Assembly (NCBI RefSeq): GCF_000020505.1
Contig: NC_011027.1
Location: forward strand, 790,001-854,000
Length of the DNA stretch: 64,000 bases
Direction: 5' to 3'
Source: Chlorobaculum parvum NCIB 8327
Lineage (GTDB): Bacteria; Bacteroidota; Chlorobiia; Chlorobiales; Chlorobiaceae
Part shown: one piece after another, positions 10,871-35,186 of the stretch
How the letters are laid out: each line of letters opens with the position of its first letter
Position numbering within the stretch: the stretch's first letter is position 1
Made by a program: the position numbers and the translations under genes
The notes under the pieces: model-generated
What the model was told of the DNA's origin: nothing
Database searches by the model: none
The model's input: the letters and a program-made list of their open reading frames with translations, nothing else

Positions 10871-11350
10871 TCAGGCTACCGAACCGCTGGCCTTGAGCTT
10901 CTTTTCGTTATGCTTTTCAAGCAGCAGGCGAATGACGAACTGCGCCGCGTTGATGAGATAGCTCAGGTAGGCAAGATAGGCAGTCAGAATGAGAATGTTT
11001 TCCGCCGGTTTGATCCAGAAGAACAGAACAAAATAGGCGAGGTGCACAATCATGGCAATCGCGCTGCCGAAATCCTCCCAAAAGAACTCGTGCGCGAAGG
11101 CGAATTTTCCGAACACCTCAAGCTCGAAAAAGCCGCCGGTCACGAAGATCAGCACGAGCATGAAGGTCTTGAGCGCCACGAAAAAGGTCACCCACCAGAA
11201 ATCGGTGATCCAGATGCCTTGCGAATAGAGGTACGTGACCGTCAGACCGGCAAGGAAGATGAGGAACTGGATCGGCGCAAGAATCGCCTGCACGGTCGTC
11301 CATTTGGACGCATTTCTTTTTTCAAGCTGTTCCGGTGTATAACGAGGCAT
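10871..11350 (-). CDS. bchF: 3-vinyl (bacterio)chlorophyllide hydratase
   Basis: Hydrates the 3-vinyl group to 3-hydroxyethyl. The 159-residue integral membrane protein has about four hydrophobic segments and the family start YTPEQLEKRNASKWTTVQAI, followed by QFLIFLAGLTVTYLY. Green sulfur bacteria carry two homologues, BchF and BchV (the latter tied to bacteriochlorophyll c methylated species). The operon with bchC and bchX favours BchF, although sequence alone does not fully exclude BchV. The promoter is probably in the 70 bases upstream, which are AT-richer (for example ACTATATTC read on the minus strand). Confidence 0.92.
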   Translation of the reverse strand: MPRYTPEQLEKRNASKWTTVQAILAPIQFLIFLAGLTVTYLYSQGIWITDFWWVTFFVALKTFMLVLIFVTGGFFELEVFGKFAFAHEFFWEDFGSAIAMIVHLAYFVLFFWIKPAENILILTAYLAYLSYLINAAQFVIRLLLEKHNEKKLKASGSVA

Positions 11351-11538: not shown

Positions 11539-11582
11539 CTGTCATTGCGAGGAGCGTAGCGATGTGGCAATTCAAGTGATTT
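11539..11582. repeat. Dispersed intergenic repeat, CATTGCGAGGAGCG family, copy 1
   Basis: Contains TCATTGCGAGGAGCGTAG followed by CGATGTGGCAATTC. A second copy with the same core lies at 33808-33849, TCATTGCGAGGAGCGTCG then GACGTGGCGATTC. Both are intergenic and imperfectly palindromic at the ends (CATTGC / GCAAT-like). Confidence 0.7.
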
Positions 11583-11751: not shown

Positions 11752-11836
11752 AACAATAACACGCTACTTTGTTGCGCTTATTCGTCCAATGAGGCATGTA
11801 AGGCGCAATAGAGTAGCGCAGATAACTAAGTTGGCT
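11752..11836. other. attC-like structured site 1 (left boundary of a putative gene cassette)
   Basis: An AAC (11752-11754) and a GTTGGCT (11830-11836) bracket an imperfect palindrome of about 18 pairs (11763-11780 with 11799-11817, one bulge). Integron attC sites have this order: RYYYAAC, structured palindrome, GTTRRRY, with 54-150 bases in total. The boxes fit the consensus only in their AAC/GTT cores. No integrase gene is visible. Inference from structure. Confidence 0.4.
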
Positions 11837-11877
11837 ACAAAGCTAAAGATGAATATAGAAATTAATAATATATAATT

Positions 11878-12723
11878 ATGAATGAAAAAGAAAATATCGC
11901 AACATGGTTTAAATGGGGATTAACCACAATCGTTGTAATTGCTATAATTATTAAGTTATTACTAGCTGATATTGATATCAGTAAGATTCAATTCAATTTC
12001 ACTGACCTCTTGTCTTTAATATTAGCTTTGTTTGCTGTATGGATATCAATTAATTTTTACCATAAAAACAATGAGACAAGCAATAAATTTTACAACAACA
12101 CATATACGTTTACAAAAGACATCTCAGAAACTTTGGGTCGAATTGAGGAAAGGTTTGGTGAAAAGCTGGAATCATTGAAAGAAGAAAACAAATCATTATC
12201 CGGTCGAATAGACAAGTATTATTCCAACTTTCCTAAGACTGAAAAGGATGTTGAAAAAGATGCTAAAAAAGAACAAGAGGTCCAGAATAAATTAGAAAAA
12301 GAATTGCAAGAGCAAAAAGAATTATTAGACGCATTTACAAAAAAGTATAAAGTTGCCGAACAAGATAAAAATAAATTTATCGAGCAACTTGATATTAAAA
12401 ATCAGGAAGTAAATAGATTGCAGAGAAAATTAAAATTATTTGAAATTTCAAACAGACAAATAAGCGAAGAAATTGATGACAAATATGATATTCCATCAAG
12501 AATAATTAAATATTTTACAAGGAACCTAATTGAAAATAAAGATTTAAGAGAAATATTTGAATCTCAGGATGTGAGAAGAATAATGGAGGAATTTAATGTT
12601 TCATGCAAAAGATTTTCTCCAGGGTTTGTTCGTGATTTGGAAAAATATGACATGATAGATGAAAGCCATAACTTAACTGATAAAGGACTATCTATTTTCC
12701 TTGATATTACAAATCGTATATAA
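11878..12723 (+). CDS. AT-rich membrane/coiled-coil protein with winged-helix-like C-terminus
   Basis: A 281-residue protein I do not recognise. Two hydrophobic segments (about residues 12-30 and 40-60) are followed by a long charged coiled coil (about 75-200, rich in Glu and Lys). The C-terminal 80 residues include RRIMEEFNVSCKRFSPGF and then LTDKGLSIFLDI, a pattern resembling a winged-helix domain. Codon use is strongly AT-biased, unlike the GC-rich genes on both sides, which suggests acquisition by transfer. It is alone on the plus strand between two hairpin-forming sites with exactly matching boundary words, suggesting a mobile cassette. Function unknown; an accessory or defence-related role is only a guess. 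Confidence 0.75.
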   Translation: MNEKENIATWFKWGLTTIVVIAIIIKLLLADIDISKIQFNFTDLLSLILALFAVWISINFYHKNNETSNKFYNNTYTFTKDISETLGRIEERFGEKLESLKEENKSLSGRIDKYYSNFPKTEKDVEKDAKKEQEVQNKLEKELQEQKELLDAFTKKYKVAEQDKNKFIEQLDIKNQEVNRLQRKLKLFEISNRQISEEIDDKYDIPSRIIKYFTRNLIENKDLREIFESQDVRRIMEEFNVSCKRFSPGFVRDLEKYDMIDESHNLTDKGLSIFLDITNRI

Positions 12724-12731
12724 AGCTCAGT

Positions 12732-12861
12732 AGCCAACAAAGTGTAAATGCCATAAGGGTTTCAGAGGTATGCGAAGGTCAGAAGTCCGCTTTAACTCTT
12801 CGTGTAAATTGATAGGGAGTCACCCGCAATCCCTTACGGCACTTACACTCAACCGTTATCG
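12732..12861. other. attC-like structured site 2 (right boundary of the putative cassette)
   Basis: AGCCAAC (12732-12738) and GTTATCG (12855-12861) bracket a 22-base inverted repeat, arms 12741-12762 and 12828-12849, matching at 19 positions. Two of the three mismatches become G-T wobbles on the bottom strand, the strand recombined in known attC sites. AGCCAAC is the exact reverse complement of GTTGGCT at the left boundary, as expected when a cassette's own R'' box and its left end belong to one circular attC. A large terminator-like hairpin is the alternative. Confidence 0.45.
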
Positions 12862-12971
12862 AAAAAAATCTTAAAAGTTAGCTATAGCGCAAACCTTAAA
12901 CGTCATAAGAGAGATGACTTCTGCATGTTTCTGAAAATGCACAGTTGCTCGTTTGTATGGCGTTGATTTCA

Positions 12972-14660
12972 TCAATTCTTCTTCACCTTCCAGTCATACA
13001 TATTTCCGAGCGTGTAGAGCAGGCTTAGCTTGACGTTCTGCACTCGCGGGCTGAATCCTTCCAGCTCATCGTAATAATACAGGAAGGTTCTCGGCTGCTC
13101 GTTGGCGAGAATCTGCTGGTAATCTTTCCAGAGCTTGAGTTGCTCGGCTTTGGGGAGCGGGCCGGTGAGTTTGGCGACGACGCGGTCGAGTTCGGCGTTC
13201 TGGAAGGCTGAGGAGTTGAAGGGTTTTTTCTCAAAATCCGAGCCCCAGATGACGAGCTGGAAGGGGAGCGTTTCGGCGGCGAGGCCAGACAGCGCGGCGT
13301 CGTAGCGGTACTCGTTCTGGTTCTTGTTGAACATGAGGGTTTCGTCGAACTTCAGCTTGCAGTCGATGCCGATTTCGCGGAGGTTCTGCTGGATGATCGT
13401 TGCCGCGTAGTTGCGCCTCGGGTTGCCGGTGGGCGCGGCGAGTTCGAATGAGAACTTCAACCCGTTTTTCTGCAAAATGCCGTCCGGCCCCGGCGTCCAG
13501 CCAGCCTCTTTGAGCAGGGCGAGCGCCTTATCGGGGTCATACGCGTAGGAGGGCAGCGATGTGTCGATGATCGAGGTGTAGGCGGGCGAGAGCGTGGTGT
13601 TGACGATGGTTGCGTGCTTCGGTCCCATGAAGCCGTCGATGATCGCCTGCCGGTCGATGGCGTAGGTCATGGCCTGCCGCACGCGGCGGTCGCCGAAAAA
13701 GCGATTCGGCTCGATCTTCTTGCCATTGCGCCACGCCGCGCCGTCGATGTTCAGCCAGACGACGCTATCAAAGTAGCGGTCGGCCACCGGGATGATCGCT
13801 ATTTCCGGGTTGCTTTTCGCCAGCTCCGCGGCGTCTTTCGGGTTGATGCCGCCCGCCGATACGAGCGCGTCGATCTGACCAGATTTGAGCATCGCGAGCC
13901 GCGTGGTGTACTCCGGCACCACCATGAATGTGAGCGTCGGCGAGGCTGCCGGATGGGGCAGCACCGAGGTCGGATTCGATTCGAGCACCAGCTTCGATTG
14001 CCGCTGCCACTCCTTGACCTTGAACGGGCCTGCACCCACGATTGGCAGGGTGGCGGCCTGCTGGCGGATCTGTTCCGGCTTGATGTCGCGGAAAAGGTGT
14101 TCGGCTACCGGCATCAGGTCGTTGAAGTGGTCGAGCACAATGCTTTCGGCCATCGGTTTGTTGAAGTGCAGCACCAGCGTTTTGTCGTCCGGAGTCTCGA
14201 CTGCTTTGTCGAAATCGACCGAGCCGTCAGGCTTGAGCAACAGGTCGTACAGGTAGTCCTGACGACTGCTTGCCACGTTCGGGTCGGCATACAGGCGGTA
14301 GGAAAAACTGAAGTCCTTCGAGGTGAGCGGCTTGCCATCCTCCCAGACCGCCTTTTCGTTCAGGTGGAACGTCACGTTTCGGCCATCCGGCGTAAACTCC
14401 CAGCTTTCGGCGGCTCCCGGTTCGTAATTGATCGTGCCATTCTTTTCGTCAAACGTAGGGCGGAAGAGCGTCGGATAGATCATCGTGCACAGCTCGCGGG
14501 AGAGCGAGAGCTGGATGAGCAGGGGATTGAGGTGGTCGAAATCGGCTGAGACGGCAACCACGATGGTGTTATTGCGCGACGTATCGGACGATTTGGAGCC
14601 GCATGCACCAAGCAGCGTCGCGAAGAGAAGGGTGAGGATGGTGAACAGCGATTTTCGCAT
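12972..14660 (-). CDS. ABC-type peptide/oligopeptide-binding lipoprotein (SBP family 5)
   Basis: A 562-residue extracytoplasmic solute-binding protein related to OppA/DppA. It begins with a lipoprotein signal peptide whose lipobox LLGAC places the lipidated cysteine at C20. The mature part has the family pattern: an N-terminal SADFDHLNPLLIQ region, ESWEFTPDGRNVTFHLNEKAVWEDGKP split around residue 85, and a C-terminal FNKNQNEYRYDAALSG lobe. It should bind a peptide or similar solute in the periplasm and deliver it to an ABC permease. No permease or ATPase gene is adjacent, so it works with components elsewhere. Located upstream of bchF and next to bshB1; ligand unknown. Confidence 0.9.
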   Translation of the reverse strand: MRKSLFTILTLLFATLLGACGSKSSDTSRNNTIVVAVSADFDHLNPLLIQLSLSRELCTMIYPTLFRPTFDEKNGTINYEPGAAESWEFTPDGRNVTFHLNEKAVWEDGKPLTSKDFSFSYRLYADPNVASSRQDYLYDLLLKPDGSVDFDKAVETPDDKTLVLHFNKPMAESIVLDHFNDLMPVAEHLFRDIKPEQIRQQAATLPIVGAGPFKVKEWQRQSKLVLESNPTSVLPHPAASPTLTFMVVPEYTTRLAMLKSGQIDALVSAGGINPKDAAELAKSNPEIAIIPVADRYFDSVVWLNIDGAAWRNGKKIEPNRFFGDRRVRQAMTYAIDRQAIIDGFMGPKHATIVNTTLSPAYTSIIDTSLPSYAYDPDKALALLKEAGWTPGPDGILQKNGLKFSFELAAPTGNPRRNYAATIIQQNLREIGIDCKLKFDETLMFNKNQNEYRYDAALSGLAAETLPFQLVIWGSDFEKKPFNSSAFQNAELDRVVAKLTGPLPKAEQLKLWKDYQQILANEQPRTFLYYYDELEGFSPRVQNVKLSLLYTLGNMYDWKVKKN

Positions 14661-34364: not shown

Positions 34365-35186
34365 ATGGTGAAAAAAAAGAAATATATCCATAGAATCCTT
34401 TTTTTGCAGCCTGCTCAACAGCTGGTTACTTGGATATTTTCAACTTCAATTATTTGTGCTATTGTGATTGTCTTAGATCTTGGCGGTATAATTAAGGTAA
34501 AGATTCAAACATCAGTATTTGTAGAGTTTGCCTCGTTGATTGCAGGTATAAGCGGTACGGTAGGTGCAATAATGGTTGGTTTTATTATTTCTAAGCTTCA
34601 GTCGATTGAGTCTGGTCGACAGTTATGGTACATAGAACTCAAGCATGAGTTAAAAGAGATGAGAGATGTTCTACATAGTTTAGTATATGAATATTTTCAA
34701 TTATGTGAGCCTTTAGATAAATGTATTCAATATCTTGAGAACTTAAACATTCGTACAGACCTTTTTGCGGTAAAATTAGATTGGGATACTATCCAAAAGC
34801 CATCCCGTCTTGCTTTTGGTGATGCCGATATTGATGTGAAGAATAAAAATGTCTATTCATTAATTCAGTCTATAGTTCATGTTGAAGAATATATTGATGA
34901 ATTGAGAATTAGCTGGGTTGCATCAAATGTGGTAGGGTCACTTTTAAGAGATTGTAGTAATAAATTATTTGCATTGCTGTTGCTTTCTTTGGGCTTCATG
35001 GCGTTTTTTGCGATTTCAGATGCTGAATATAGCTTTAATTCTTATTTGTTTTTGGTATTTATAGTGGCATTTTTGATGTATATTGGTATCGTGCTTGTTG
35101 AGATAATTATACATACTAATGATTTTGTGAGGAATGTTAATTCTTCAAATAACGGTAAAATGGATGATTTGGAGTTGCGAGATTGA
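34365..35186 (+). CDS. AT-rich four-helix membrane protein, function unknown
   Basis: A 273-residue protein with two N-terminal membrane segments (about 20-40 and 52-75), a central soluble helical region (about 80-200) and two C-terminal segments (about 205-225 and 232-255), so both soluble ends likely face the cytoplasm. Codon use is AT-rich, in contrast to rimO and tgt next to it, suggesting recent acquisition. I do not recognise the family; the layout resembles putative membrane proteins of accessory regions. Confidence 0.7.
   Translation: MVKKKKYIHRILFLQPAQQLVTWIFSTSIICAIVIVLDLGGIIKVKIQTSVFVEFASLIAGISGTVGAIMVGFIISKLQSIESGRQLWYIELKHELKEMRDVLHSLVYEYFQLCEPLDKCIQYLENLNIRTDLFAVKLDWDTIQKPSRLAFGDADIDVKNKNVYSLIQSIVHVEEYIDELRISWVASNVVGSLLRDCSNKLFALLLLSLGFMAFFAISDAEYSFNSYLFLVFIVAFLMYIGIVLVEIIIHTNDFVRNVNSSNNGKMDDLELRD

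Follow-up and report, generated by a model that had tools for sequence, protein, structure and literature searches.

The closest described systems to the locus analysed here are the integrons, including the superintegrons of Vibrio. They combine the tyrosine recombinase IntI and an adjacent insertion site, attI, with arrays of attC sites. Their cassettes are co-oriented and mostly carry a single gene, the 3' sites are palindromic with AAC and GTT boxes and recombine at G|TT, and the ends of each cassette are complementary. Published definitions treat an additional domain as the mark of IntI (PMC9668308, PMC8138268). The I2 domain of IntI is regarded as an adaptation to folded single-stranded sites (PMC4792948) and is held to be the step that enabled integron integrases to use folded single-stranded attC (Escudero et al., as cited). 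Two other described systems are relevant, namely the CALIN elements, which are defined by an IntI-type attC model, and the XerA, XerC and XerD recombinases.

We analysed a stretch of 64,000 nucleotides (the window), positions 790001-854000 of the 2,289,249-bp genome of Chlorobaculum parvum NCIB 8327 (G000:C1). It very probably holds a lone copy of the platform and one cassette of a widespread integron-like system of Bacteroidota and Chlorobi. Like integrons, this system has a tyrosine recombinase encoded beside a putative insertion site, co-oriented and mostly single-gene cassettes, palindromic 3' sites with AAC and GTT boxes, exchange at G|TT (here deduced from sequence), complementary cassette ends, and long chromosomal arrays together with one plasmid-borne array. 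Unlike them, it has a new recombinase without the I2 insertion and with an extra N-terminal domain, encoded upstream of the array and in the same orientation. Its leader is palindromic, the R' box reads GTTR rather than GTTRRRY, and the stem of the site has a conserved A/C opposition. The window and a second locus of the genome resemble CALIN in having sites and cassettes and no functional recombinase, but the sites belong with a different recombinase. A literature search, with preprints and most subscription journals outside it, found no description, for either Bacteroidota or Chlorobi, of integron-like arrays served by a recombinase other than IntI, and relative to that literature the system is apparently undescribed. 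Some of the enzymes carry the NCBI label 'site-specific tyrosine recombinase/integron integrase', which stems from a model that also covers XerA, so that the link may have been suspected.

Limits of the cassette

The cassette covers window positions 11831-12855 on the + strand (1,025 bp), starts with TTGGCTAC and ends in ...CAACCG. It contains one gene, at 11878-12723 (+), which encodes a protein of 281 amino acids and is AT-rich within a window of approximately 56% GC. The initial annotation had placed this gene between two palindromes and had proposed that the exactly complementary words at its ends mark one circularisable cassette. Both palindromes are present, and GTTGGCTAC at 11830-11838 is the exact 9-nt reverse complement of GTAGCCAAC at 12730-12738, each word occurring a single time within the 64 kb. 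The putative left recombination point, G|TT at 11830/11831 (+), is placed where 17 leader copies cease to be conserved, immediately after their GTT, and the cassette blocks common to unrelated arrays also have their first base exactly at GTT. The putative right point, G|TT at 12855/12856 (+), comes from comparison with the second locus of the genome (L016) and with the loci L055 and L056; the sequence 3' of it, TTATcgAAAAAA, resembles the ends of other arrays (TTATAAAAAAT).

The cassette is flanked by a conserved small gene (10871-11350, - strand) and by a gene for a peptide-binding protein (12972-14660, - strand). Presence or absence in relatives had been suggested as a check of mobility, and its outcome agrees with an inserted unit: the flanking genes are neighbours in G003, the closest relative, where the 308 bp between them contain neither the cassette gene nor the sites, and a search of 60 genomes, from genus to phylum, found no relative of the cassette gene. 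The interval between the flanking genes is a variable spot across the genus. At window positions 11544-11571 there is a REP-like repeat, ATTGCGAGGAGCG...GGCAAT, of a kind met at the same interval in other genomes of the genus. Elsewhere in the window, at 34365-35186, a second AT-rich orphan gene for a membrane protein (273 amino acids) lies in a stretch of 37% GC, without a leader or attC-like sites.

The leader

The initial annotation had taken both palindromes for attC-like sites, a reading that stands for the right one (see below) and fails for the left one. The left palindrome, at 11752-11832 (+), consists of CGCTACTTTGTTGCGCTTA...TAAGGCGCAATAGAGTAGCG, a spacer and a terminal GTT, followed by the cassette, and holds an attI-like position. 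A second copy, 87% identical, is found in the same genome at G000:C1:310651, and copies occur in 25 of 86 Chlorobiaceae genomes. When the 17 copies are aligned, they agree through ...CAAGTT and diverge at once, each locus being different after the GTT. At other loci the leader is found ~45 bp downstream of a recombinase gene, past its stop codon in L055, L056 and L058. In G016 and G006 it starts about 20 bp past the stop of an intact tyrosine recombinase of 382 amino acids, with the GTT ~100 bp past the stop, while in G020 the recombinase upstream of the leader is frameshifted. We interpret the left palindrome as the conserved leader of an array, different in kind from the right attC-like site, and cassettes would begin at its terminal G|TT. 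The leader copy of the window stands alone, with no recombinase gene in cis at the locus; the earlier statement that no integrase lies nearby was thus correct, and the whole genome yielded no IntI over the cut-off.

The attC-like site

The right site of the cassette, at 12730-12863 (+), comprises GTAGCCAAC, the stem AGTGTAA.TGCC.TAAGGG / CCCTTA.GGCA.TTACACT, and GTTATCG. A covariance-model search for attC had been proposed as a check. The model R2, built without any sequence of this genome, recovered 12730-12863 at 45 bits (E=1.1e-7) as the sole match in the window up to E=10, and the left palindrome did not match. An earlier model, R1, which included the window site, gave that site 62 bits and returned just two sites over the whole 2.29-Mb genome. 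An Rfam search of the cassette region gave no meaningful match; RF02837, guessed to be an attC family, is unrelated. It could be argued that the palindromes are chance structures or intergenic repeats around an immobile acquired gene, in an intergenic region that varies across the genus and has the REP-like repeat nearby at 11544. This explanation is already contradicted by the independent covariance-model match, the repeated leader, the exact complement of the ends and the second copy in the genome, and we give it practically no weight.

The attC-like sites fold as imperfect hairpins that are conserved in structure and not in sequence, as IntI-type attC sites do. In an alignment of 43 sites, AAC and GTT are invariant, although the full IntI-type boxes, RYYYAAC (R'') and GTTRRRY (R'), are not reproduced: GTTRRRY fits in only 5 of 82 cassettes, the consensus being GTTR. 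Stem covariation reaches 0.704 against 0.172 in shuffled alignments (0/500) and at most 0.119 with slid partners, and 259 cells of the alignment have changed on both sides of the stem. The stem was partly read from the same alignment, which biases the percentage of paired positions in its favour, whereas the double changes are independent. Outside one column there are almost no G-T pairs, a sign that the pairing occurs at the level of DNA rather than RNA. At one position of the stem A (41/41) faces C (38/41), which gives a mismatch on the top strand and, on the bottom strand, a G-T wobble.

Regarding the strands, the initial annotation had held that site 2, the right one, pairs better on the bottom strand, as in true attC sites. 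In single-stranded DNA folding this is so for site 2 (-20.3 kcal/mol, z -3.7, against -18.3 kcal/mol, z -2.8, for the top strand), but it does not extend to a general rule: site 1 folds better on the top strand (-14.5 against -13.3 kcal/mol), and the bottom strand is the better one in only 27 of 44 diverse attC-like sites, with a small gap between the two.

The recombinase family

The recombinase that accompanies the sites has an Xer/IntI-like catalytic domain and an extra N-terminal domain. Against the IntI model TIGR02249 it scores 196 bits (cut-off 265), with profile positions 180-238 unmatched, and an alignment with canonical IntI from the same phylum has 42 columns that IntI alone fills and the new family lacks. 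The best NCBIfam match is NF040815 (XerA_Arch), at 217 bits with a cut-off of 220. For the AF2 model of the Flavobacterium luteum enzyme (pLDDT 82) the best structure is XerA (5hxy), followed by IntI (2a3v). The N-terminal ~60-100 residues matched no Pfam family. A quick tree, to be read with caution on account of its long branches, recovers the new family, IntI and XerC/D each as one clade (supports 95, 100 and 100). The missing I2 insertion and the placement outside the IntI clade indicate, on sequence grounds, that the recombinase of this system is not IntI and forms a clade of its own; the initial suggestion of a lone integron cassette or remnant array does not hold in the sense of an IntI integron. 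The likeness to XerA, XerC and XerD lies in the catalytic domain, but the new family sits at a cassette array and not at dif, carries the extra N-terminal domain and is separate from the XerC/D of the same phylum. Neighbours of the new family in the tree include other Xer-like recombinases from Bacteroidota (L230-L232, L236-L239), and these lack the I2 insertion as well.

Canonical IntI is itself present over the cut-off in 13 of 61 genomes, two of them of the genus (G006 and G012), and it might be proposed that the window cassette is a CALIN remnant, derived from a classical integron and mobilised by the IntI of some relatives. The cassette plan and the GTT and AAC boxes are those of integrons, and in G038 an IntI gene is near four R2-type sites. 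However, in every intact case seen the leader is downstream of a non-IntI recombinase, the loci around 11 other canonical IntI genes contain no R2 match, and GTTRRRY is as rare as stated above. We consider this origin quite improbable. In several Chlorobiaceae (G006, G012, G026, G027, G032 and G035) canonical IntI genes exceed the cut-off, often close to the end of a contig. The new recombinase type also occurs in the family, and G006 and G035 have both enzymes. The four R2-type sites of G038 (L025, G038:C1:1203835-1206510) are a few kb from the IntI gene, and that genome also has a relative of the new recombinase.

A different question is whether the same system uses double-stranded, Xer-like sites with two strand exchanges, the palindrome serving instead in, for example, the termination of transcription or recognition as a cruciform. 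The recombinase lacks the I2 domain, IntI's adaptation to folded single-stranded sites (PMC4792948), its closest solved structure is XerA, and folding shows little strand asymmetry. The sites, on the other hand, are unalike in sequence and keep their pairing by double changes, as expected for recognition of structure, and the A opposite C makes the top and bottom hairpins differ. We regard double-stranded exchange as the less likely form, though one with a fair probability. We lean towards the view that this is a separate lineage of integrons, common in Bacteroidota and Chlorobi and at times of superintegron size, whose integrase never had or has replaced I2 and yet moves cassettes with structured attC-like sites, representing either a state that precedes I2 or an independent solution. 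A living cassette system that joins structured sites with a recombinase without I2 makes the role of I2 in the use of folded sites testable.

Distribution of the system in Bacteroidota and Chlorobi

The order of elements is recurrent: recombinase, promoter motif, palindromic leader, and co-oriented cassettes with attC-like sites of ~130 bp. With a threshold of E<=1e-40, the recombinase family was detected in 98 of 296 Bacteroidota genomes (in the GTDB sense), and the 80 named recombinase loci include Flavobacterium, Pedobacter, Algoriphagus, Pelobium and Ignavibacteria. In 67 of 79 loci a palindromic leader ends in a GTT that lies downstream of the gene, at most 230 bp past the recombinase stop (median 99 bp). 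The usual Bacteroidetes promoter motif, TANNTTTG, is present between recombinase and leader at 41 of 65 loci compared (3.9 expected), ~90 bp ahead of the GTT, and is likely the cassette promoter. One locus, L192, places the new recombinase and leader on a contig binned as Betaproteobacteria, from a metagenome-assembled genome labelled Azoarcus; this is probably a binning error or a transfer.

The complementarity of cassette ends is not confined to the window. In 26 of 39 loci the nine bases that begin with the leader GTT recur downstream, no more than 5 kb away, as their exact reverse complement; among control words this was so for 18 of 390. Following each cassette from its start to the complement and on to the next GTT led through up to 11 consecutive cassettes (Flavobacterium terrisoli, L156, and Pelobium, L191). 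The sites extracted in this way, 82 from 25 loci, mostly measure 130-140 nt. By R2, a 40-kb stretch of G141 contains approximately 25 sites and a 78-kb stretch of G237 approximately 30, nearly all oriented as the recombinase, and a Chryseobacterium plasmid has both recombinase and sites. Cassettes carry a single gene or, in some cases, several, in a common orientation; of 81 cassettes, 74 have their longest ORF in that orientation, and the mean GC is 33%. Arrays of co-oriented, mostly single-ORF cassettes, 11 or more in number, are thus a feature shared with IntI-type integrons. The two different end hairpins of both copies in the C. parvum genome could also suggest another kind of element, for instance a non-autonomous IS200/IS605-like transposon with subterminal hairpins, but elsewhere a single leader heads as many as about 30 cassettes that all have a site of their own, and the linked enzyme belongs to the Xer/IntI superfamily of tyrosine recombinases, which leaves such an element very improbable.

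In a scan restricted to Bacteroidota genomes, R2 sites are present in 146 of 296, the C. parvum genome yielding only its two real sites. They occur in 85 of the 98 genomes with the recombinase and in 61 of the 198 without it at the above threshold (odds ratio 14.7, p 9e-21, uncorrected for phylogeny); the other 13 recombinase-bearing genomes have no sites. Surveys that define integrons by the IntI-specific domain (PMC9668308) would miss a large gene-capture system in a very abundant phylum, with sites in about half of these species genomes.

Cassette exchange and the second platform

Comparison of arrays suggests that cassettes are exchanged as units. Over 1057 bp, the first cassette of L121 shares 99.9% identity with a cassette later in the array of L204. 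The left edge of this block falls exactly on a GTT and its right edge on the next GTTA, while the 80-bp flanks are 22% identical and the recombinase genes 64.7%. A second pair, from L204 and L191, is 93.8% identical with the same boundaries. The boundaries of both pairs match the prediction of exchange at G|TT, and from a near-identical cassette in two unrelated arrays, cut exactly at the GTTs, we infer that cassettes move. In the mechanism we propose, the recombinase would cut G|TT of the leader and G|TT of the (probably folded) attC-like 3' site and join both. Cassettes would excise in circular form, with full complementarity between the two ends brought together (here GTAGCCAAC...GTTGGCTAC), the first bases of the attC-like site being the reverse complement of the start of the same cassette. 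The circles would then enter behind the leader and be read from the leader promoter.

The second platform of the C. parvum genome, with leader, cassette region and site, is located at G000:C1:310651-315154 (L016 10651-15154), downstream of aroA. Its recombinase is a relic that keeps only the first ~57 and the last ~46 nt of the gene; internally deleted relics are also found in G003 and others. As this deleted relic is all that was found of a recombinase in the genome, both cassettes are probably fixed, and the window cassette would be stranded unless a recombinase arrives from outside.

Cassette genes

The proteins encoded by cassettes of the system are mostly without a known match, and some match restriction-modification, GmrSD-like, MerT and other proteins. 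Restriction-modification and other defence-like genes are among the cargo. The AT-rich second region of C. parvum (~4.4 kb) encodes a 5-hmdU DNA kinase domain, a thymidylate synthase, DUF1599, a ThsB-like TIR, Nmad2 and one more gene, and is closed by a site resembling the right site of the window. It looks like a defence cluster linked to nucleotide modification.

The protein of the window cassette has two transmembrane helices predicted by hydropathy (about residues 10-30 and 43-60), a long coiled coil and a small C-terminal helical domain, and its AF2 model is all helical and of low confidence. Pfam gave no match over the cut-off, a fold search with the low-confidence model as query returned nothing, and weak Pfam and PADLOC matches below the cut-off were rejected as chance matches of the coiled coil. 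No relative was found in a phage collection. A membrane-anchored accessory role, perhaps in defence, may be guessed from the company and plan of the protein, and we hold this guess to be doubtful. Among 394 genomes there is one partial relative (G262), and the only other is in Photobacterium. The latter, full-length and on a plasmid of Photobacterium sp. GJ3 (L206 2839-4570), lies one gene upstream of a stretch that, judged by eye, resembles a Vibrio-type attC, and relatives of the cassette protein may also travel in classical integrons.
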